Source: Gammaproteobacteria bacterium (GTDB lineage: Bacteria; Pseudomonadota; Gammaproteobacteria; VBWC01). Taken from it: a stretch of 64,000 nt of DNA. The notes under the pieces are model-generated. The model searched no databases. It was given only the letters and a program-made list of their open reading frames with translations, and was not told the DNA's origin. A program made the position numbers and the translations under genes. Below, one piece after another: positions 51,161 to 64,000 of this stretch. Every line of letters starts with the position of its first letter. The first letter of the stretch is position 1. The stretch is taken from the NCBI GenBank assembly GCA_023266115.1, contig JAHFRU010000002.1, positions 124,001-188,000 on the forward strand. The letters run 5' to 3'.

Positions 51161-51316
51161 TAGTCCAGACCTTTACGTACGCCGTGTGCCCCGGTATCCT
51201 ACGAACCCGGTGGCCACAGCTGGTGCAACCTGCCAGCGTTCCCGTCTGGTAATCGACACGTTGCTGTAGTTGCAAGGCGCCAAACAGGCGTCGGCCATCC
51301 AATTTGAACCGTTTCC

Positions 51317-51410
51317 GGAGAGATGGCCGAGCTGGTCGAAGGCGCTCCCCTGCTAAGGGAGTATGGGGTCAAAAGCTCCATCGAGGGTTCGAATCCCTCT
51401 CTCTCCGCCA
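51317..51410 (+). tRNA. tRNA-Ser (anticodon GCT), CCA encoded
   Basis: 94 nt with a long variable arm. Acceptor GGAGAGA pairs with TCTCTCC; the anticodon loop is CTGCTAA (anticodon GCT, codons AGC/AGU); the T arm has GGGTTCGAATCC, then G and encoded CCA (51408-51410). A strong terminator follows at once. Confidence 0.97.
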
Positions 51411-51451
51411 TCCAAATAAAAACGGGTTTGCAGAGCCCGTTTTTATTTGGA
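51411..51451 (+). terminator. Perfect 16-bp terminator hairpin after tRNA-Ser
   Basis: TCCAAATAAAAACGGG (51411-51426) and its exact complement (51436-51451) enclose a 9-nt loop. The downstream arm includes TTTTTATTT, so it works as a rho-independent terminator and is bidirectional by symmetry. Confidence 0.85.
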
Positions 51452-51590
51452 CTAATGCAGAATTCTAACCCTCGATATCGATAGAGCCGGGTTCGACGCC
51501 TGAGCGCGAAGGCGAACATCGCCGTGAAACGGCGGTGGCCCGAAGGGCGAGGAGCGCGAGCTCCGAGTAGGACCTCTCTTTCTCCGCCAT

Positions 51591-51630
51591 CCATATCAAT
51601 AAAGGGTTCTTTGAGCCCTTTTTGATATGG
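51591..51630 (+). terminator. Second terminator-like hairpin in the tRNA-Ser tail repeat
   Basis: CCATATCAATAAAGGG (51591-51606) and CCCTTTTTGATATGG (51616-51630) pair over about 15 bp with one bulge. It occupies the same place after the tail copy as the main terminator does after tRNA-Ser, although its sequence has diverged. Confidence 0.65.
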
Positions 51631-51948
51631 GCTCGTAAAACGATTCGAACCCGCAGATTAATTATGTCCGGTTCGACCATCGCGCCGCAGGCACGAGGGA
51701 ATGGCCGGAGGCCGGCCCGGCGGGTAGGCGCGTAGCGGGAAGATCTCTCTCTGTCATTCATTCCAAGTGGCGTTCGGCAGGTTTGTTTGGCGGTGACCTG
51801 GTGCGAACGTCGAGCTTTTAATTCAAGTAACCTGGCGACGGCGTGTCAGTCGGGCGCCTCAAGCGCGCAGAGTCTGGTGACGCCCAGGCGCTCCGGGCTG
51901 CATCATTTTGGAGTTACCAGCGCAGATCGCCGTGCAAACAGGGCTTTC

Positions 51949-51977
51949 TTGACACTCCCCGAGTTGGCCCGGATAAT
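51949..51977 (+). promoter_or_regulatory. Consensus sigma-70 promoter of tRNA-Arg
   Basis: Perfect TTGACA (51949-51954), a 17-nt spacer and GATAAT (51972-51977). The run of C at 51980-51984 resembles a GC-rich discriminator typical of stringently controlled stable-RNA promoters. The tRNA starts 28 bp after the -10. Confidence 0.8.
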
Positions 51978-52005
51978 CCACCCCCTTAAATCTGAACCGG
52001 TTTAT

Positions 52006-52082
52006 GCGCCCGTAGCTCAGCTGGATAGAGTACCTGGCTACGAACCAGGTGGTCGGGAGTTCGAATCTCTCCGGGCGCGCCA
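52006..52082 (+). tRNA. tRNA-Arg (anticodon ACG), CCA encoded
   Basis: 77 nt. Acceptor GCGCCCG pairs with CGGGCGC; the D arm has AGCTCAGCTGGATAGAG; the anticodon loop is CTACGAA (ACG, presumably edited to ICG); the T arm has GAGTTCGAATCTC; CCA is encoded at 52080-52082. Integrase and phage-type gene remnants begin just downstream. Confidence 0.97.
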
Positions 52083-52094
52083 AATATAACCTTA

Positions 52095-52134
52095 CGGGGC
52101 AATGCCTTAAAAGCCGCATCATTGCCCCGCTTTT
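52095..52134 (+). terminator. Terminator after tRNA-Arg
   Basis: CGGGGCAATG (52095-52104) pairs with CATTGCCCCG (52120-52129) around a 15-nt loop and is followed by CTTTT. The stop of the HNH remnant on the other strand falls inside this hairpin. Confidence 0.7.
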
Positions 52135-54035: not shown

Positions 54036-57000
54036 TCACTCAGGCATCGTCCGATGCTTGCTCCTGGCGAACAGCCGCCCGATACGGCAGCAACCCTGCT
54101 TCACATCCATGCCGATGCCCAGTGCCGCCGGAATCGAAAATAGCGTGATCACGGTCGAGAACATCAGACCCCAGGACAGTGCGAGCGCCATTGGCGCGAC
54201 GAACGGATCGAGACCGCCCCAGCCGTAGGCCGTCGGCAGCAGACCGACAACTGTCGTCAGGGCGGTGAGGAGTACCGCACGCAGGCGTCGTTTGCCTGCC
54301 TCCATTACCGCGACACGCCACCCGGTGCCCTGGCTGACCAGGCGCTGGATAAATACCGCCATCACCAGCGATGAGTTGACGACCACGCCGCTCAATGCGA
54401 CGAATCCCATCAGCGCCATAAATGACAGCGGCTGACCGTGCAGGTAAAAGCCGCACACAATGCCGATCAGCCCGAACGGAATCGACAGCATGACCAGCAG
54501 GGGGTAGGCGATGCGGTTGAACTGGATCGCGAGGATAAGGAAAATCCCGAACAGCGCGTACCCGAAGCTGAATACCAGGCCCTTTACCGACTCCTCGTCA
54601 CGTTCCTGCGCGCCGCCCAGGTGGTATTCGAGTACCGGCGCATCGTCCGCCAGCCATTCCGCCTCACGTTTTTTTACCAGTGCGTTTACTTCCCGCGAGG
54701 TGATCACATGCGGGTCAACGTCGGTCGAAACGTTAATGACACGGTTGTTGTTCTTGTGCCGGATGCTCGTGGCGCCAGGGTGCTGCGTGACCCTGGCGAT
54801 CTTGTGCAGCGGCACCAGCCCGCCGCGGTTGTTCGGGATTTCGAGATTCAGCAGGGTCTTTACGTCGCGCTGCGCGCGCTCGGAATAGCGGATCGTGACG
54901 TCGACCTCTTGCTTTCCATGTTTCAATGTTGATACGCGCAGACCGTCGAATGCGGCCTTGATATGTTGTGCCACCGTGGCCAGATCAACGCCCGCGAACG
55001 CGGCCAGGCGCCGGTCCAGCTCGATGTGGATTTCCGGATCGCCATATTCGAGATCGCTTTCGACGGCGTGGGCACCCTTTACGCCGGCGAGCAGGCTCAT
55101 CAGACGCCGGGCAGCACGCTCCTGGGCGGCGACGTCACGCCCGGTGATCTCGACCTGTAATGCGCGCCCGACCGGGGGCCCGGGCACCTCCATGACGAAG
55201 CTGATTTCCATGTCGCGAAACAGCGACGGAACCTCGCGCTCCAGTACATTCATCACGTCATAGGCCGGGATATCACGTTCGGTAAACGGCATCAGGACGA
55301 TACGGAGAAATCCGAAACGGTCACCGATCTGCTTCAACGTCTCTCGCTGGTCGGCGCTGTTTTCACCCGCGACCATGGTCGTGGTTTCAAGAATTTCGGG
55401 GTCAATGCGGCTGCGTACTTCACGGTCCAGCCGTTGCAAAGCCGCCTCGGTTTGTTCCAGCGTCGTACCGGTCGGCAGTTTGACACGCAGGTAAAACTGC
55501 GTTTCCGCGCCAGGCGGAAACAGTTGAAATTTGATGTGACCCGCCAGTGTAAAGGTGGCGCCCAGCGCAAGTATGGTGAGGAGAATAGTCAAATAGCGCC
55601 AGCGCACCGCCACCCGCAGCAACCATTCGTAAGCGACACTCAGCCAGCGAAACAGCCATCGTTCCCGCGGACGCTTGTTCGCACGGGCGACATCGCGGAT
55701 ATGATTGGGCAGAACGAAGATGGCCTCGAGCCAGGAGAACATCAGCAGGGTGGTGACCACGACGGGAATCGCGAAAACGAACTTGCCTACGATGCCTTGC
55801 ATGAACATCAATGGCAGGAATGCGACGACCGTCGTCAGGACGGTCGCCGTGACGGGACCGATCAGCTCCATGGTTCCGGTGACGGCGGCCTGTTCCGGCG
55901 GCATGCCGTTTTCCATGTGCCAGGTTATATTTTCGCCGATGATGATCGCATCGTCGACCAGCATCCCGAGCACCATGATGAAGCCGAACATCGTCAACAG
56001 GTTCAGCGTGACGCCGCCAAGGTACAGTACAAGAAGGCCGGCAAAAAATATCACCGGCAGGCCCCATGCGGTTGTCAGCGCGACGGCCGGTCGCAAAAAG
56101 AGCAGCAGTGTCGCCGTGACCAGCAGCAGGCCGAATGCGCCGTTGCCGGTCAGCAGGCGAAGACGCAGACGGGTGACGGTTGAGAAATCGTTGTAAATAC
56201 GCACATTCACTTCGTTGCCGTACCGTTCTGGCACCGTCTTCAGGTAGGCACGAATCCGGTCGACAAGATTTATCAGGTCTGCATCGCCTTTTTTCAGCAC
56301 GATCATGTTGACCGCCGGCTCGCCCTGGGCGCCGACCAGACGGGTAGGGCGCTCCAAAGTATCGATCACGTCCGCAACATCTTTCAGACGCAGCGCGTCA
56401 CCGCGTTCGTTGGCGCGGATCACCAGACCGGCGGCGTCCTCGGCGGAGACGAACTCGCCGGTGATGCGGATGGTTTTCTGGTTGTTCGGGATTTTGATCT
56501 GCCCGCCGGGGGCGTTGACGTTCCATCCCTGAATCAGGCGTACTACGTCGTTAACGGCGATACGGTGCCGGCGCATCCGCTCGGGGTCAAGCACGACGCG
56601 GATCTCCTGTTTACGTTTGCCCTGCACCAGCACGTTCGCGACGCCGGGCAGATTCATGACGTCGTCCTCGATACGATCCGACAGACGCTTCAGCGACAGC
56701 GGATCATAGTCGCCAAAAATCGTAAACGACAGGATGGGCGTCTGTTCCGATTTCACTTCGGTGATCACCGGGTCGGCCGGCAAGTCCACCGGCAGATCGG
56801 CACGGTCGATCGCCTGCTGGACGTCCGCGACCAGCCGTGAACGGTCGGCATAGTTGGGGTCAATCTCGATCGTGAGCTGCATCATGCCGGGATAGGCGGT
56901 GGAACTGACCGCCTTGATGCCATCGATACCCTTCAGTTCGCGCTCGATCGGCGTCACCAGCAGACTTTCGATTTCCCGCGGTGAGGCACCGGGGTAGCCG

Positions 57001-57149
57001 GCGCCGACACCGACGATGTCGAAGTTAACGCTGGGAAATGCCTCCCGCTGGATATGGCTCGCGGCGTAGAGTCCGCCGCCCAGCAACATGATGGACACCA
57101 GGTTCACCAGCAGGCCGCGCTGCACAAAGAATTCGATCAACGACCTCAC
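54036..57149 (-). CDS. RND family efflux transporter permease
   Basis: 1037 aa with RND architecture: MRSLIEFFVQRGLLVNLVSI at the N-terminus, two large periplasmic loops and two six-helix bundles. TM4 has the Asp pair in LVDDAIIIGENITWHM. TM10 reads SGVVVNSSLVMAVFIQRL, where HAE1 pumps have a Lys, so it belongs to another RND branch. SYPGASPREIESLLVTPIE-type docking sequence (here YPGASPREIESLLV) is present. It follows a TolC-family gene with a 4-bp overlap, but no adaptor gene lies in this operon. The substrate is unknown. Convergent with the truncated adhesin. Confidence 0.92.
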   Translation of the reverse strand: MRSLIEFFVQRGLLVNLVSIMLLGGGLYAASHIQREAFPSVNFDIVGVGAGYPGASPREIESLLVTPIERELKGIDGIKAVSSTAYPGMMQLTIEIDPNYADRSRLVADVQQAIDRADLPVDLPADPVITEVKSEQTPILSFTIFGDYDPLSLKRLSDRIEDDVMNLPGVANVLVQGKRKQEIRVVLDPERMRRHRIAVNDVVRLIQGWNVNAPGGQIKIPNNQKTIRITGEFVSAEDAAGLVIRANERGDALRLKDVADVIDTLERPTRLVGAQGEPAVNMIVLKKGDADLINLVDRIRAYLKTVPERYGNEVNVRIYNDFSTVTRLRLRLLTGNGAFGLLLVTATLLLFLRPAVALTTAWGLPVIFFAGLLVLYLGGVTLNLLTMFGFIMVLGMLVDDAIIIGENITWHMENGMPPEQAAVTGTMELIGPVTATVLTTVVAFLPLMFMQGIVGKFVFAIPVVVTTLLMFSWLEAIFVLPNHIRDVARANKRPRERWLFRWLSVAYEWLLRVAVRWRYLTILLTILALGATFTLAGHIKFQLFPPGAETQFYLRVKLPTGTTLEQTEAALQRLDREVRSRIDPEILETTTMVAGENSADQRETLKQIGDRFGFLRIVLMPFTERDIPAYDVMNVLEREVPSLFRDMEISFVMEVPGPPVGRALQVEITGRDVAAQERAARRLMSLLAGVKGAHAVESDLEYGDPEIHIELDRRLAAFAGVDLATVAQHIKAAFDGLRVSTLKHGKQEVDVTIRYSERAQRDVKTLLNLEIPNNRGGLVPLHKIARVTQHPGATSIRHKNNNRVINVSTDVDPHVITSREVNALVKKREAEWLADDAPVLEYHLGGAQERDEESVKGLVFSFGYALFGIFLILAIQFNRIAYPLLVMLSIPFGLIGIVCGFYLHGQPLSFMALMGFVALSGVVVNSSLVMAVFIQRLVSQGTGWRVAVMEAGKRRLRAVLLTALTTVVGLLPTAYGWGGLDPFVAPMALALSWGLMFSTVITLFSIPAALGIGMDVKQGCCRIGRLFARSKHRTMPE

Positions 57150-58654
57150 GGCGAGGCGCTCGCGGGCTCGGGTATGACAACGCCAAGTTCGGCGAGCAGT
57201 ACGCCGGTGGACCAGGCGAGTTGGCGGTCGCCAAGCAACAGTGACAATTGCAGCAGTTCCGCGTGGAGCTCCGCGCCGTGGAGATCGCCCTCGAACTGGA
57301 TGATGGTCGCGGTATCTGAACGTCCGTCCCGGTAGCGCCCCAGTTCCGCATCGAATTTGTCTTGTTCGGCCTGGGCCTTCACCCAGGCAAGCCGCAGCGT
57401 TTCGGCGCCGGTCTGCAACGTCGTCAGGATCGTTGCCAGTTCATCGCGGACCTGTTCGGCGAGCTGGTGACGCTCCAGCAGCACGCGCTGGCGCATGAGC
57501 AACGCCCGTTGTGCCTCGGCGTCCGCGGTACGGTTGCCCAGCCTTTCGCTGAATTCCAGCGACAGGCCGGCGAAGGTGTCATTGGGGCTGAGCGTCCCGG
57601 TGGCGGCGTCGCCGGCGTTGCGGTCGAGCGCCATCGATCCGAGCTCCGCAACGATATCGACCTGTGCGCGCGTACCGTCACGGGCGATGCGCTGGCGCGA
57701 CATCGCCGCGCCCAGTTGTGCGTCGAGAATCCGGAACTCCGGCCGGTGCGTAGCCGCGATGTCGAACACGTCGTTCAGGGATTGCAAGTGAGCGGCGGCA
57801 GCGTCGTTGGCCAGTATCGAGACGGACGTGCCGGGATCGCGCCGCATCAGTCGGTTCAAGGCCACACGATGTTGCTCGCGTAACGCGCGCGCTTCCTGCA
57901 ACTCGAGCGCGCGCGTCGCCAGCAACGCTTCGGCCTGCTGGCGGTCGGCCGTTTCGATCAAACCGAATTCCTCACGGAGGTGCTGATAGTCGAGCAGGCG
58001 AGTGGCGCGATCGACGGCGATGTCCGCCAGCCGGATGCTGACCTCGCTCGACAGTAACAGGTAGAACGTATTCAGCGTCGCAAGGGCGAGATGCCGTGCC
58101 ACGAGCTCGCGCCGTAGACGGCTGGCAGCAGTATCGGCGTCCGCCGCCTCGAGTCCCTCTCGATACGCCGGTCGGTCAGCGCCACGCGCCAACGGATGCC
58201 GGTACTGCACGCTGATACTGCCGCGATAGGTCGGGTTGATTCTGGCGAGTTGAGCGGCCAGCGGGCTGCTGAACTGCTGACGCGTGCGGCTATAGTCAAT
58301 GAACGCATTCACCGATGCGCCGCTGGCCAGCGGCCTGGAAATGCCGCCGGATATCTGGCCAATGCGCGTCGCTTCCGGCTGAAAATCGCTTGCCACGGGT
58401 GTTTCGTCATCGCGGATACCGATACTGGCGTTGACCGTCGCATCGAGTATTCCTGCCAGTTTCCGGGTTTCGATCGCCGCAATCGCCGTATCGAGATCAC
58501 TGATTGCCAGGTCAGGGTGGTTGGTCACGACCGCCGTGATGACCGCATCCAGCGTGAGCATGTCGGCGGTGCCCGCCGCCAGCAAGGCCGTCGTCTGAAA
58601 ATAGGCAGGAAGAATGCATGCAAAAAGCAACACTCGCCCGGGGACGCGTTTCAT
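57146..58654 (-). CDS. TolC family outer membrane efflux protein
   Basis: 502 aa. A Sec signal peptide (VLLFACILPAYFQTTALLAAG, without a lipobox) is followed by two OEP-type repeats. The long helices include LDAVITAVVTNHPDLAISDL and FDIAATHRPEFRILDAQLGA, which carry the NHPDL and HRPE motifs of the family. QYRHPLARGADR corresponds to the beta-barrel of the first repeat. It overlaps the downstream RND gene by ATGA, so the two should act together. With no co-encoded adaptor, one must be borrowed from elsewhere, or the branch works without a dedicated one. It follows pilE on the same strand after a 225-bp gap without other features. Confidence 0.88.
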   Translation of the reverse strand: MKRVPGRVLLFACILPAYFQTTALLAAGTADMLTLDAVITAVVTNHPDLAISDLDTAIAAIETRKLAGILDATVNASIGIRDDETPVASDFQPEATRIGQISGGISRPLASGASVNAFIDYSRTRQQFSSPLAAQLARINPTYRGSISVQYRHPLARGADRPAYREGLEAADADTAASRLRRELVARHLALATLNTFYLLLSSEVSIRLADIAVDRATRLLDYQHLREEFGLIETADRQQAEALLATRALELQEARALREQHRVALNRLMRRDPGTSVSILANDAAAAHLQSLNDVFDIAATHRPEFRILDAQLGAAMSRQRIARDGTRAQVDIVAELGSMALDRNAGDAATGTLSPNDTFAGLSLEFSERLGNRTADAEAQRALLMRQRVLLERHQLAEQVRDELATILTTLQTGAETLRLAWVKAQAEQDKFDAELGRYRDGRSDTATIIQFEGDLHGAELHAELLQLSLLLGDRQLAWSTGVLLAELGVVIPEPASASP

Positions 58655-58879: not shown

Positions 58880-59272
58880 TTACCACTTTGTGGTGGGCGT
58901 TTTAGCGCCCTGGGAGTTGTAAGTCAGGTTGCCATCGCCTGCTTGCGCAGTCTGGGCCTCGGCGGTCAGGATAACGCACGTAGCGACACCCGTCCCGCAT
59001 GCCGCGGCGCTGATCTTGTAGTAACCGGAATCGGTATCGACCTTGCCGCCGCCGTCGACCGGTGCGAAATTGGACAGGGTCGCGGTATACGTGCCTCGCT
59101 CGGCGAAATACCGTTCCTCGGCGTTCATTAGCTGCACGAGCTTTGTTTGGCCGTCGCTGCGCCGGCCTTTTGTTACCGAGTCCTTATAGGACGGATAGGC
59201 GATCGCCCCCAGAATGCCGACGATCGCAACTACCATCATCAATTCGATAAGCGAAAATCCAGTTTGTTTCAT
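58880..59272 (-). CDS. pilE: Type IV pilin-like protein, PilE type
   Basis: 130 aa from ATG at 59270-59272; an upstream in-frame start at 59365 would misplace the prepilin leader. The class III signal is MKQTG followed by FSLIELMMVVAIVGILGA. PilD would cleave after Gly5, giving N-methyl-Phe1 and Glu5. Short pilin body (QTKLVQLMNAEERYFAERGT) and two Cys in AACGTGVATC that may form the D-region disulphide. Position after pilY1 and the small intervening gene matches the pilE minor pilin of Pseudomonas, a core-type minor pilin priming pilus assembly. Confidence 0.93.
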   Translation of the reverse strand: MKQTGFSLIELMMVVAIVGILGAIAYPSYKDSVTKGRRSDGQTKLVQLMNAEERYFAERGTYTATLSNFAPVDGGGKVDTDSGYYKISAAACGTGVATCVILTAEAQTAQAGDGNLTYNSQGAKTPTTKW

Positions 59273-59327
59273 ATACACGTTACGAATCCTTATAGGGTTC
59301 TCGTTGCGGGCCGAGATAGCGGAACGC

Positions 59328-59684
59328 TTACCTTCCACGAACGGGAAAATCGCTCGGTAATTCATAAATGACGATCAGTGTCCGTCGCCCGGAGTCGTCA
59401 ATCATGTCGTCGCCTCCCACTGTCATGCCGACGGACAGCGCGGCTAGCGCCGATGACTGGCGGGTCAACAAATGTACCGACGTATCTCCGGTGACCTGGA
59501 ACAAACGGTCGCTAATCACTATTTCGCCGTTCTCGACGTCCAGCCGGTCAATGGTTCCGACTACTCTGAATGTGGCAGGGTAGTACGTTGGCAGCGTCAC
59601 TGCCGAGACCATCCCCGCGCAAACAAACAGCGCCACGGCGGCGATAGTGCTGTGTATACCCGTCATACTGGCTTTTTGATTCAT
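59328..59684 (-). CDS. Small exported protein in the PilY2 position
   Basis: 118 aa from ATG at 59682-59684; a longer in-frame start at 59738 would run into pilY1. A signal peptide (TIAAVALFVCAGMVSA) precedes a short beta-rich domain (FRVVGTIDRLDVENGEIVIS; LSVGMTVGGDD; RTLIVIYEL). In Pseudomonas the small gene between pilY1 and pilE is pilY2, whose product likewise contains a short 'value must be set by rule' beta module. Identity here rests on position and that resemblance, not on strong sequence match. It is likely periplasmic and associated with PilY1. Confidence 0.7.
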   Translation of the reverse strand: MNQKASMTGIHSTIAAVALFVCAGMVSAVTLPTYYPATFRVVGTIDRLDVENGEIVISDRLFQVTGDTSVHLLTRQSSALAALSVGMTVGGDDMIDDSGRRTLIVIYELPSDFPVRGR

Positions 59685-59713
59685 GATAGTGCCGACTCCT
59701 GTTATCGGGTTGC

Positions 59714-62700
59714 CTAATAGCGATGCAGTTCTTGCCATGACAGGCGTCCGGTACCCGGGCCTGTTTCACCGGTATCCACCACTCCCTGGCTGATGTTTCC
59801 CGAGCTGCCCGGCGTGTACTGAAGGTCGCCGAGGAAGTTGGACTCGGTCGGAATACCTTCGGAGAACAACTTGCCGCTGGCATTCTTGTAGGGGTTGCCG
59901 GTACCGCTGGTGACCTTGTCGGTGTTACCGCTGTCGTCGACACGGCCGTCATTGTTGACGTCAAATACCGGTGCCGCCGGTTGGCCACCGTCGCTGGTAT
60001 TGACCACCATCGTCCATCCGGTGCCACCGAAACTGCACGCAGCCGCGTCCGGAATTAGCGTGTTGAAGAACACGAATTTTCCCCGTATCTTCGGATTGAC
60101 CGTGACGCGTTCACCGCTGGTCGGCAGGTCGATCAACCAGCCGTGTTTCGCGCTGCCGCCGCTCCATGCAATAGTATTATTGGTCAGCACGCGAACATTC
60201 GTTGCGTAACCGGACGCGAAGGTCTGCGCGACCAGATTGGACCGCAAGAGCTCTTTTGAATTGTGGTCCCAGACCCCGTAGAACGTCTGGCCGGTGGTGG
60301 TCGTCTTGTCGGCTTCGGTTAGGTACTGTCCGGTGCCGAAATAGACCATGATGTTCTTGCCGTTGCCGCTATCAGGTTCCGACGGGTGTTTCGCCAATAT
60401 CGGCTTCACGGTGATCGGTTGCACCACGCCGGATGCGTCCTTGGCGGTAAACAGCGGTTTTGGTGTCGAGCCCGTCTTGTAAGCGACACCCCAGTTCGAA
60501 GCGGTGCTGCCGCTGACATCGAACACCCACAGATTGCCTTTCAGGTCGCCCGCATAGACACGGTCAACGGTGCCATTGCCGTCGGTATCGGCCAGCACGG
60601 GTGTCGACAGCCCGTTGCAATCGCTGCCCGAGTTGGCGCAGTTGCCGCCGCTGATGGTGCCGATGCCAGTCGTTATCTTCACGTAGTCCGTTGTCGGAGT
60701 CCACACACCATCGATACCGCCATCGACGTAAAGGATGAACAGTTGCGCCTTGCCGCTGCCGGTATCGTTGTAGCCGTTGCCGAATATCGCGGCCCACTTG
60801 CCGTTGTCCATCAACGCGATCGTCGGTTTGCTGAAGGTGTAACCGAGATCGGCGTCATGGCTGTTCGAGAATTCCCACATAACGACATCGTCGGGCACGG
60901 AACCGGATTCGCTGAATGTCGAAGGATTGGTGACATCGAGCGCAAAGATGCCGCGGGCGCCGCTACGGGCTCCGCCGATCAACACAGTCTTCCAGCTGAC
61001 GGTGCCGGTAGGGGTTGTTTTGATGTACGCATCGGCGGTGGTAGGGCTGAGGTCGTTATGATAACGATGGGAGTAGGTTTTATCGGTCAGGTAATGCAGT
61101 CCCTCGGTCGTCGTGGTGGTGTACAGATAGTTCGGAATATACGCCAGAACTTCGGCTCCTGTAGCACCGTTGAAGCCATGTAACATGCCATCGTTTGCGC
61201 CCACATAAACGACGCCGGTGCGGCTAGCCTGCGCCGTGCGGAAATCGTCATAGGTCGTGCCGACCGCGGTCGGGAATGCGGTCGTGCCCGTGCTCGGATA
61301 ACTCTGTTCCGGTTTGCCGACGTAGACCGGGTTGGATTGCACAATATCGCCGAGGCGGCTGTCGCGTACCCGAAAGTTTGCCCCGCTGGCGCCCTCGTTG
61401 CCACGGTCGCCGCGCAGGTAATCCAGTCGGCTTTGACCGGTGGCATCGCTGTCGACACTGCCGCTGGCGCTGGTTTTCAGGTCGTTCTTGTGCGCGGTGG
61501 CCAGTGACGCCCACTGAAACGGAATGCCAGCGGTGCCATTGTAGGTCAGAACATTGCGTGGTGAACTCGTCAGATTGCGGGTATCGAGTACTGTCGACGC
61601 CGCCCAGGTATAGGTCGGGGCAACATTGCCGCTTACCGGGTCGAGTTCATACGAAAGCAGATCGCCACTCCATTTTCCGGTATTGAAGCGGGCCAGATAA
61701 ATAAAGCTGTCCGTACCCAGCGAGGTCGAGTTGAACGCCACCGCCGCGGCGGTGCTGGTACGGTCGGTAATGCTGTTAATTGCGTCTGACAGCGCGCTGT
61801 TCAGCGCCTGCGGGTTCTGTGCCGCGAGGTATTGGCCGCGTCCATTATAGGCGGTGTGCCACAGATCGTCGATTTTCTGTGGATCGCCGAGGGCGGGATT
61901 CGGCCAGCTGAAGCCGGAGTCGGTTGGACTGGTAGTGCTCGGATTCAGCGTGCCATTCAGCCCGAACGACACCGTATAGGTCACCATATGCTGGTGGTTC
62001 GCCTCGTCCACGCCAACCACGATTGGCACCTGGTTGGCGACGCTGGGACTCAGGTCGCGTTCGTAATAATGCATCGCCACATCGGCGAGCGTATTGCTGT
62101 AAGAGTCTGCATAGGAATCGCCGTCGAAAACGGTATTGTGATCGCCGTCGGTGTTCGACGGTGAAAGCGACGGGCTGGATCCGTTGTAGAAGCCGTCGGT
62201 CATCAGGATCGTATAGTTTTGCTGACAGGTTCCGCCGGACGAGGCGCTCAAAATCGGGCAACCGCTGGTGCTGTCGAACATATTCGGGTCGCCGGAGCTG
62301 TTGACGCACTCGTAGTAACGCCCGACCTTTTTCAGGTTTTGGGTCAGCGGTGTACCGCCTGTTGAATCGGTTTGAAATACCTTGCCCAGCAGCGTGTTCT
62401 TGTTAGTGCTGCTGGTCATGGTCGCGACCTTGGTCTTTAGATTGCCGTTGTTGTTGATTGTGGCGTAACCCATGCGCGCGAATGTCGTATTGGTAATAAC
62501 GGTGCTGACTGCGTTCTTGGCACTGTACTCGCGCTTGCGGTAATAGGTAAACCAGTTCGCGAAGTTCTGGATTTCCTCGGCATAGGTGCAGCTTGGCGCG
62601 CTCGCGCAGTCGGTTCTTGACGTGCTTCCTGTGTAGGTCGGCGTTGTTGACCTGATTTCGACCAGCGTATGAGCGTCACTGGCGTCGACAACACCGTTGC

Positions 62701-63316
62701 CGTTGGAGTCGGTCCAGGTGTAGTAACGCGCCGGATAGAAATTGGTGACGGTAAACGAGCCGAGGCTGGTCTGGGCGCCGTAGTTTGTTGAGTAGGACGT
62801 GTTGGTAGTTAGATTCGTTGTGCCGACGGAGGAACTGTATGGATTGTATCGGGCCGCGGTAGGGCTGCTGTTGCCATAGGCTACGCTGGCACTGTCCTTG
62901 CCCGGCCAGGGAAGGTAGGTAGCGGACGGATTGTAGTACATTTTGTTATAGCCGGAGTACCATGCCCGCCATACCCCGGCTGCGGGTGCGGCGACGCCTT
63001 TTGACGAAGTCAGATATTCTTCTGTTGGAACGATGTAGTACCAGTCGTTTTCAGCGGCGGGGTGAGTGTAATAGTACGCATAACCTCCAAGATAGAAGAG
63101 TCCGTCCGACTCCGATGTCATGACCGCCCAGTCCATACTGCCGGAATCGTCGGTCAGGAAAAACACGTTTGGCTCTACCGCCGTCGATAGATACAACGGG
63201 TTCGATGATATTGTGCCGGGAGCGGCAAGGGTCGGTTGCGCGCTAAAGAGCGTCAGCACTGATATTGTGGCTGATAGCGCAACAAAGGTGAATGTGTTCA
63301 GGGCTGCCTTAGTCAT
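59714..63316 (-). CDS. pilY1: Type IV pilus tip adhesin/biogenesis factor PilY1
   Basis: 1200 aa. The signal peptide (LSATISVLTLFSAQPTLAAP) is followed by a von Willebrand A-like region with a MIDAS-type FFLTDDSGSM near residue 55. QQNYTILMTDGFYNG lies further along. The C-terminal third is the PilC/PilY1 beta-propeller: GVVYVGANDGMLHGFNGATG and YIPNYLY. Calcium-loop-like repeats follow (DTDGNGTVDRVYAGD; DVNNDGRVDDSG), and the end is GRLSWQELHRY. PilY1 sits at the pilus tip, supports extension and signals surface contact to cyclic-di-GMP pathways. Length is typical. It lies 48 bp after pilX. Confidence 0.96.
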   Translation of the reverse strand: MTKAALNTFTFVALSATISVLTLFSAQPTLAAPGTISSNPLYLSTAVEPNVFFLTDDSGSMDWAVMTSESDGLFYLGGYAYYYTHPAAENDWYYIVPTEEYLTSSKGVAAPAAGVWRAWYSGYNKMYYNPSATYLPWPGKDSASVAYGNSSPTAARYNPYSSSVGTTNLTTNTSYSTNYGAQTSLGSFTVTNFYPARYYTWTDSNGNGVVDASDAHTLVEIRSTTPTYTGSTSRTDCASAPSCTYAEEIQNFANWFTYYRKREYSAKNAVSTVITNTTFARMGYATINNNGNLKTKVATMTSSTNKNTLLGKVFQTDSTGGTPLTQNLKKVGRYYECVNSSGDPNMFDSTSGCPILSASSGGTCQQNYTILMTDGFYNGSSPSLSPSNTDGDHNTVFDGDSYADSYSNTLADVAMHYYERDLSPSVANQVPIVVGVDEANHQHMVTYTVSFGLNGTLNPSTTSPTDSGFSWPNPALGDPQKIDDLWHTAYNGRGQYLAAQNPQALNSALSDAINSITDRTSTAAAVAFNSTSLGTDSFIYLARFNTGKWSGDLLSYELDPVSGNVAPTYTWAASTVLDTRNLTSSPRNVLTYNGTAGIPFQWASLATAHKNDLKTSASGSVDSDATGQSRLDYLRGDRGNEGASGANFRVRDSRLGDIVQSNPVYVGKPEQSYPSTGTTAFPTAVGTTYDDFRTAQASRTGVVYVGANDGMLHGFNGATGAEVLAYIPNYLYTTTTTEGLHYLTDKTYSHRYHNDLSPTTADAYIKTTPTGTVSWKTVLIGGARSGARGIFALDVTNPSTFSESGSVPDDVVMWEFSNSHDADLGYTFSKPTIALMDNGKWAAIFGNGYNDTGSGKAQLFILYVDGGIDGVWTPTTDYVKITTGIGTISGGNCANSGSDCNGLSTPVLADTDGNGTVDRVYAGDLKGNLWVFDVSGSTASNWGVAYKTGSTPKPLFTAKDASGVVQPITVKPILAKHPSEPDSGNGKNIMVYFGTGQYLTEADKTTTTGQTFYGVWDHNSKELLRSNLVAQTFASGYATNVRVLTNNTIAWSGGSAKHGWLIDLPTSGERVTVNPKIRGKFVFFNTLIPDAAACSFGGTGWTMVVNTSDGGQPAAPVFDVNNDGRVDDSGNTDKVTSGTGNPYKNASGKLFSEGIPTESNFLGDLQYTPGSSGNISQGVVDTGETGPGTGRLSWQELHRY

Positions 63317-63364
63317 TGAAATTCTCCGCGAACCGGTCAGATCCTTGCTGATGCCGTTCGTCTG

Positions 63365-63922
63365 TTACATGGCTCTGCCGTAATGTTCCTGTAAATACGT
63401 ATAGGAGTTGCTCGTTTTGCCGGTGGCGCGTGCCGTGATGCGAAACGTGTTCACAGCGGAGTTGCCGGTGCCATCGCCGGTGTTACTGATCATGAGCGGA
63501 TCGGGAGCGCCTATCTTGACCAACTGGATGACATAGCGTGGTGCAGTACCTGCGTCGGTCAGGGTGCCCGAGTAGCCGCGCGAGCTGGAACTGCTCCAGG
63601 TAGCGTTGGCGAACGGATCGACAGTGGCAGTGGTCGTGTACAGCCCAGTTGTGCCGCCGTTAAACGCACTTACCGCCGCGATGGACTGAATGTACGCTTC
63701 GGCATCACGCAACGCTGCTTCGGCAGACTGGAACGCAACGTTGAGGTCGCTTTGGTTGCCCGACATTTTCTGCTCAACGTTGGATGTTGTCATTGCGGTG
63801 ACGCCGATCAATGTCATGACCAGCAATATCAGCAGACTGACTATCAGCACGGCTCCGCGCTGCTCGGCCTGGAAACCTGTTGAGATTTTCTGAGAGTAGG
63901 GCGAGTTGGTGACGATAGTCAT
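63365..63922 (-). CDS. pilX: Type IV pilus minor pilin-associated protein PilX
   Basis: 185 aa from ATG at 63920-63922, which lies 1 bp beyond the pilW stop (TGATATG). The N-terminal PilX signature is QRGAVLIVSLLILLVMTLIG, followed by NVEQKMSGNQSDLNVAFQSA and EAALRDAEAYI. The mature body is Ser/Thr-rich. PilX, PilV, PilW and FimU form the priming complex that carries PilY1. The order pilW-pilX-pilY1-small gene-pilE on one strand is the canonical minor pilin operon. Confidence 0.92.
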   Translation of the reverse strand: MTIVTNSPYSQKISTGFQAEQRGAVLIVSLLILLVMTLIGVTAMTTSNVEQKMSGNQSDLNVAFQSAEAALRDAEAYIQSIAAVSAFNGGTTGLYTTTATVDPFANATWSSSSSRGYSGTLTDAGTAPRYVIQLVKIGAPDPLMISNTGDGTGNSAVNTFRITARATGKTSNSYTYLQEHYGRAM

Positions 63923-63923
63923 A

Positions 63924-64000
63924 TCATTTAACCCGGTTGCGCAAAGTGAGGGTGGTTTCATGTACGCGCCGCATGCGCCGGTCGTCCACCGGATTGTAAA
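63924..64000 (-). CDS. pilW: PilW, C-terminal end (rest outside window)
   Basis: Only about 25 codons are inside the window, ending at TGA 63924-63926. The end NPVDDRRMRRVHETTLTLRN is characteristic of PilW C-termini. The stop is immediately followed by the pilX ATG. Confidence 0.75.
   Translation of the reverse strand, partial: YNPVDDRRMRRVHETTLTLRNRVK

Follow-up and report, generated by a model that had tools for sequence, protein, structure and literature searches.

Behind a tRNA-Ser(GCT) gene of a gammaproteobacterium, the 3′ end of the tRNA recurs in tandem, and the question is what these repeats are. An initial annotation of the sequence offered two answers, a processed small RNA or the trace of recombination at the tRNA tail, which we regard as compatible with each other rather than exclusive. 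We analyzed the locus in the window, namely the whole 64,000-nucleotide stretch of DNA that contains it, and in related genomes.

Anatomy of the two units and their surroundings

Downstream of tRNA-Ser(GCT), we found one unit of 179 bp and a second of 167 bp. The recurring tail corresponds to the last 18 nt of the tRNA gene (51393-51410), and unit 1 begins at the first base after the tRNA-Ser CCA, directly following a tRNA gene as tRNA-linked repeats (TLRs) follow tRNA or rRNA genes. From 5′ to 3′, the order within a unit is a terminator hairpin, an inverted copy of the T-arm, GGTTCGAC, a hairpin core, and a copy of the tRNA 3′ tail. The features are as follows.

51317-51410, + strand: tRNA-Ser(GCT), the host gene (ARAGORN and Rfam tRNA)
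51411-51451, + strand: first intrinsic terminator hairpin, start of unit 1 (perfect 16-bp arms; −24.8 kcal/mol, z −8.9)
51462-51476, + strand: inverted copy of the tRNA-Ser T-arm in unit 1, type B, 14/15 complementary (0/2000 shuffles)
51490-51571, + strand: core of unit 1, GGTTCGAC and then four hairpins (RtT model alignment, hairpin parse)
51572-51589, + strand: tail copy 1, end of unit 1, 15/18 identical to the tRNA 3′ end, ending in CCA
about 51591-51630, + strand: second terminator hairpin, opening unit 2 (z −7.2)
51642-51652, + strand: inverted copy of the T-loop in unit 2, GATTCGAACCC (0/2000 shuffles)
51670-51738, + strand: core of unit 2, decayed (aligns with unit 1)
51739-51756, + strand: tail copy 2, decayed, 13/18 identical, CCA lost
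51949-51977, + strand: sigma-70-like promoter, TTGACA-17-GATAAT, ahead of tRNA-Arg(ACG)
52006-52082: tRNA-Arg(ACG)

Both tails were clearly homologous to the 3′ end of tRNA-Ser, without full identity. Tail copy 1 showed 3 mismatches in 18, and none of 2000 dinucleotide shuffles was as good; tail copy 2 showed 5 mismatches in 18, which 20 of 2000 shuffles equaled, so that it is weak alone. The recurrence of the tail at +179 and, weaker, at +167, as claimed by the initial annotation, was thereby borne out. Its second landmark at a distance of exactly 180 bp was also found, as GGTTCGAC at 51490-51497 and 51670-51677, and the hairpins that it had described as comparable terminators after the first two tails folded far better than shuffles. 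The first of these comprises a GC stem followed by TTTTTATTT, judged by eye; a strict terminator scan did not list this hairpin. Both units hold a G+C-rich hairpin core. The hairpins of core 1 lie at about 51497-51514, 51517-51537, 51538-51548 (which is CCCGAAGGG), and 51551-51564, and its fold was better than shuffles (z −2.9), whereas that of core 2 was no better (z +0.8). The inverted T-arm copies of both units were absent from the initial annotation. An inverted copy pairing with the tail to form a closing stem was not found in unit 1, which carries the type B T-arm copy in its place.

The similarity between the units extended far past the tails. End-to-end alignment of units 1 and 2 gave a score of 22, compared with −28.1 ± 5.7 and a maximum of −3 in 1000 shuffles. 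The sister species, furthermore, carried a unit at the same place (88% identity over 199 bp). The initial annotation had named self-comparison and the same interval in relatives as checks, and the outcome that it had set beforehand against itself, no self-similarity beyond 15 bp and no conservation, did not occur.

The upstream neighbors of the array in the window are recA, alaS, an aspartokinase-like gene, and csrA, the last identified from its sequence; efflux and pilus genes lie downstream. An RND efflux pump with its outer-membrane partner was located at 54036-58654, adjoined by a type IV pilus minor pilin cluster (ComP-like, PilY1, PilX; 58880-63961, − strand). Two open frames run antisense to the tRNAs (51199-51594 and 51859-52122, both − strand) and encode the peptides AEREGFEPS and RPERFELPT, which are likely spurious proteins open to annotation by gene callers. 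A coding role of the repeat region was rejected, as its ORFs are short or antisense to tRNA. Both promoter hexamers upstream of tRNA-Arg(ACG) were kept in the sister genome. Since tRNA-Arg(ACG) has its own, conserved promoter, we assign the repeats to the 3′ side of the tRNA-Ser transcript.

Relationship to the RtT family and loss of a unit in the sister genome

At Rfam gathering thresholds, only tRNAs were found in the window. Under an E-value threshold, RtT (RF00391) matched 51441-51589 over model positions 1-130 of 130 with 26.3 bits, below the gathering cut-off of 45 bits. This match had an E-value of 0.0087 over the whole genome, where it was the second-best place. The likeness to the E. 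coli tyrT repeats pointed out by the initial annotation, which had named this covariance search as a check, was therefore right, the model aligning with unit 1 at full length. Unit 1 showed the core fold of RtT, namely, the paired UUCG/CGAA, the hairpins, CCCGNAGGG, and GAGTA before the tail. The closing stem of RtT, formed by the inverted tail and the tail, was absent from unit 1, and the model alignment showed mismatches in that stem. By its model score, unit 1 is a divergent relative of RtT and TLRs and not a curated member of RF00391. From this similarity and prior knowledge of the E. coli TLRs, the locus is best read as a two-unit TLR (Rfam RtT family) behind tRNA-Ser(GCT).

In the same genome, RtT was found above the cut-off behind tRNA-Ser(GGA) (52.5 bits), and the tail of that unit matched its host tRNA at 18/18 positions. 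The only congener found likewise carried RtT behind tRNA-Ser(GGA), with 58.4 bits, and a weaker RtT behind tRNA-Gln(TTG). The array behind tRNA-Ser(GCT) in this genus looks to be decaying, given the tail mismatches, the lack of structure in unit 2, and the RtT score under the Rfam cut-off.

At this locus, the congener carries a single unit where the window has two; the absent segment has both its ends within the CTCTCT of the two tails. The simplest reading is that the unit was lost in the congener by recombination between tails; a loss rather than a gain is suggested because unit 2 does not derive from a recent duplication of unit 1. Recombination at the tRNA tail, which the initial annotation had suspected, is visible in this loss. 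Duplicated 18-nt tRNA tails also resemble att cores, and the repeats could be the scar of an integrated element that had used the tRNA 3′ end as its attachment site. We consider such a scar extremely improbable, as the core is conserved and holds no genes, no integrase was found among the neighboring proteins scanned, and in relatives 2-5 units may follow one another in tandem. No match to phages or plasmids was found, and a phage or plasmid origin was rejected.

Host-matched ends and hairpin loops in relatives

RF00391 was detected in 50 of 274 sampled Gammaproteobacteria genomes, and among 398 sampled genomes of the phylum every match outside Gammaproteobacteria fell into one family. RtT-like elements outside the class were observed in 24 genomes of this family (f198), which belongs to another class, and also at L166. 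In named genomes, the core pattern matched Enterobacterales, Alteromonadales, Thioalkalivibrio, Salinisphaera, Nitrococcus, Marinobacter, Alcanivorax, and others, as well as one Zetaproteobacteria and one Auribacterota assembly. The last match (L153) lies behind tRNA-Met in an assembly labeled Candidatus Auribacterota, and its contig may be mis-binned. RtT-like cores of Raoultella (L197) and Franconibacter (L199) lacked a CCA tail, and the available stretch upstream of them showed no tRNA over 1.2 kb; they are possible orphan units.

A same-strand tRNA was present within 1.2 kb upstream of 82 of the 99 core-pattern matches. These had been chosen irrespective of the tail, and in 53 of the 82 the last 18 nt of the unit differed from the tRNA at no more than 3 positions. 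Matching tails were found behind nine kinds of host: tRNA-Ser, Gln, Tyr, Arg, Glu, Val, Thr, Pro, and Lys. Most selected units in relatives had tails identical to the host tRNA at 18/18 positions; as that first unit set had been chosen with at most 3 tail mismatches, its single-unit tail statistics are partly circular, and we relied on the 53 of 82 instead. In 59 of 78 units, the inverted copy was closer to the host 3′ end than to that of any tRNA for another amino acid. About half of the relatives carried the tail-pairing (type A) inverted copy. In 34 type A units, the closing stem was 86.8% paired with a covariation of 0.491, compared with 0.194 ± 0.019 after shuffling and no more than 0.18 after sliding. 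Because one and the same tRNA end is the source of both arms, this covariation shows coordinated matching and is not by itself proof of selection at the RNA level.

Type B units, including those in the window, instead carry the complement of the 5′ strand of the T-stem, and this arm followed the host (4.35 of 9 versus 3.61 ± 0.15 when shuffled). The inverted copy might act as a switch, in which it pairs with the upstream T-arm, such that an RNA missing the first terminator refolds and yields no mature tRNA-Ser. Consistent with this, the predicted MFE fold of 51317-51600 swaps the cloverleaf T-arm for the pairing of ATCGAGGGTT with AACCCTCGAT, and folds ending at or before 51480 lack that pairing. 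However, this is the MFE of a long RNA, computed without modification or co-transcriptional folding, and the unmodified tRNA alone is likewise not predicted as a perfect cloverleaf. Many units also lack the T-arm copy, and the tRNA folds first. Such a switch is, therefore, improbable in our view; if it existed, T-arm refolding would make the read-through RNA poor in mature tRNA.

The TLR core consists of four hairpins, and GNA-type loops were nearly always found in hairpins 2 and 3. Regarding hairpins 1 and 4, loops of at least 4 nt with GGA were present in both in 55 of 146 units (about 40%), in neither in 77, and in only one in 14. The GGA in the loops of hairpins 1 and 4 is a CsrA-type motif. 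An independent-pairs test of the coupling between the two loops went in the same direction with 4 pairs (p 0.25), the supported branches being too few; with so few phylogenetically independent pairs, the strong raw association may partly reflect shared descent. The sequence ACANGGANGU, which we take to be the CsrA consensus, occurred in 11 of 168 cores compared with 0.4 in shuffles. ANGGA was not enriched in whole cores (53 versus 69 in mononucleotide shuffles), and enrichment was limited to its place in loops and to the longer CsrA consensus. GGA in both loops was observed at L157, L164, L182, L187, L201, L202, and others, which belong to Alteromonadales and several uncultured lineages. At L097 in G043, four units with similar stems lie behind tRNA-Gln(TTG), with GNA and GGA loops alternating between units.

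These motifs suggest, as a hypothesis, that CsrA binding is wider among TLRs than has been reported. We tentatively extend this to a broader proposal, although it is less probable than not to hold as a whole: TLRs across Gammaproteobacteria may be growth-coupled regulatory RNAs on many tRNA transcripts, their GGA/GGA class may bind the CsrA/RsmA dimer, their cores may hop between tRNA genes with ends re-matched to each host, and the window may hold a decaying GNA-loop member. If true, CsrA titration would extend beyond the three rRNA-linked E. coli TLRs. In unit 1 itself, the hairpin parse found no GGA in the loops, the feature of CsrA-binding RrA, RrB, and RrF. The idea of the window array as a CsrA sponge beside csrA was accordingly rejected, and the adjacency of csrA reflects gene order.

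Mean core identity was 0.744 between units behind different tRNAs within a genome (23 pairs) and 0.699 between units of different genomes whose tRNAs carry the same amino acid; by this measure, cores cluster by genome more than by tRNA. In G016, the cores of a tRNA-Gln unit (L085) and a tRNA-Val unit (L122) were 95% identical, and the tail and inverted copy were host-matched in each. Both results would fit inert satellites, that is, selfish or neutral repeats whose recombining, tRNA-matching ends let them spread and persist and whose RNA has no role. The loss of a unit by tail recombination in the sister genome points the same way, as does the retraction of the starvation phenotype once ascribed to the tyrT repeat (PMC8144298). 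Nevertheless, compensatory changes occur in the closing stem, the four-hairpin core keeps fixed GNA or GGA loops on very different stems, TLRs persist across the whole class, and rRNA-linked members bind CsrA and Hfq. We, therefore, regard inertness as a serious but rather doubtful explanation.

Proposed working of the locus and known systems

We favor the reading that the locus is a two-unit TLR with a read-through RNA, tail-guided processing, and tail recombination, which is probably correct. It builds directly on the anatomy, the RtT similarity, the loss through the tail in the sister, and the host-matched ends in relatives, and takes read-through, processing, and expression by analogy from E. 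coli RrB and Thioalkalivibrio. Most tRNA-Ser transcripts would stop at the first terminator (51411-51451), and a minority read-through RNA would contain unit 1, ending in the tail copy and then the second terminator (51591-51630). An RNA of about 170-180 nt would then be released by the enzymes of tRNA 3′-end maturation, acting at the tail copy; it would be short-lived, and its abundance would track tRNA transcription. At the DNA level, units would expand, shrink, and re-adapt to the host via recombination at the tail copies. Against this reading, we count the RtT score under the cut-off, the 3 tail mismatches, the lack of a tail-pairing copy, and the chance-level fold of unit 2; the strong first terminator could also keep the units silent.

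The window array is a new, partly degraded member of a known family and adds little by itself; the class-wide pattern is of more interest, and features of the relatives could help explain the role of TLRs. The survey makes TLR function testable, as it provides many natural variants with host-matched ends and near-identical cores behind different tRNAs, together with two loop types that change together, one of them with the CsrA-type motif.

Among known systems, 3′ETS-leuZ has, to our knowledge, neither a tail repeat nor a TLR core. Like the proposed product, it is excised from a tRNA transcript, namely from its 3′ spacer (Lalaouna 2015, cited in PMC8144298). Expression of RtT RNA has been reported for Actinobacillus (PMC4986893) and for Thioalkalivibrio, where cold induces it (PMC8092127). 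Unit 1 shares with RF00391 the full-length covariance alignment, with the UUCG/CGAA pairing and the CCCGAAGGG hairpin, and differs in its lower score and in a closing stem not formed with the tail. RrA, RrB, and RrF of E. coli are linked to 5S rRNA between two terminators, made by read-through, and cleaved roughly 3 nt beyond the tail copy; they bind Hfq and CsrA, and the 19 tRNA-linked E. coli TLRs are predicted as CsrA non-binders (PMC8144298). Their order of stable RNA gene, first terminator, unit, tail copy, and second terminator is that of unit 1, the tail copy of RrB from rrnB also being 18 nt long, whereas RrB lies behind 5S rRNA with CsrA-binding GGA loops that unit 1 lacks.

TLRs have been known in E. 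coli since 1978, including the 178-bp tyrT repeats (Egan and Landy 1978; Rudd 1999, cited in PMC8144298), and the tRNA-linked ones are still without an accepted function. E. coli K-12 has 22 TLRs at ten tRNA or rRNA loci, the last 18-19 bp of each being an exact repeat of upstream tRNA or rRNA sequence (PMC8144298); the initial annotation was thus correct that the repeats are attached to a different tRNA in a different lineage, yet their kind was already known. The window array resembles these TLRs in unit length, the 18-nt host tail ending the unit, the tandem placement directly behind a tRNA, and the hairpin core. In contrast to them, its host is a tRNA-Ser(GCT) behind csrA, its tail copies are imperfect, its second unit is decayed, and strong intrinsic terminators stand at both units.
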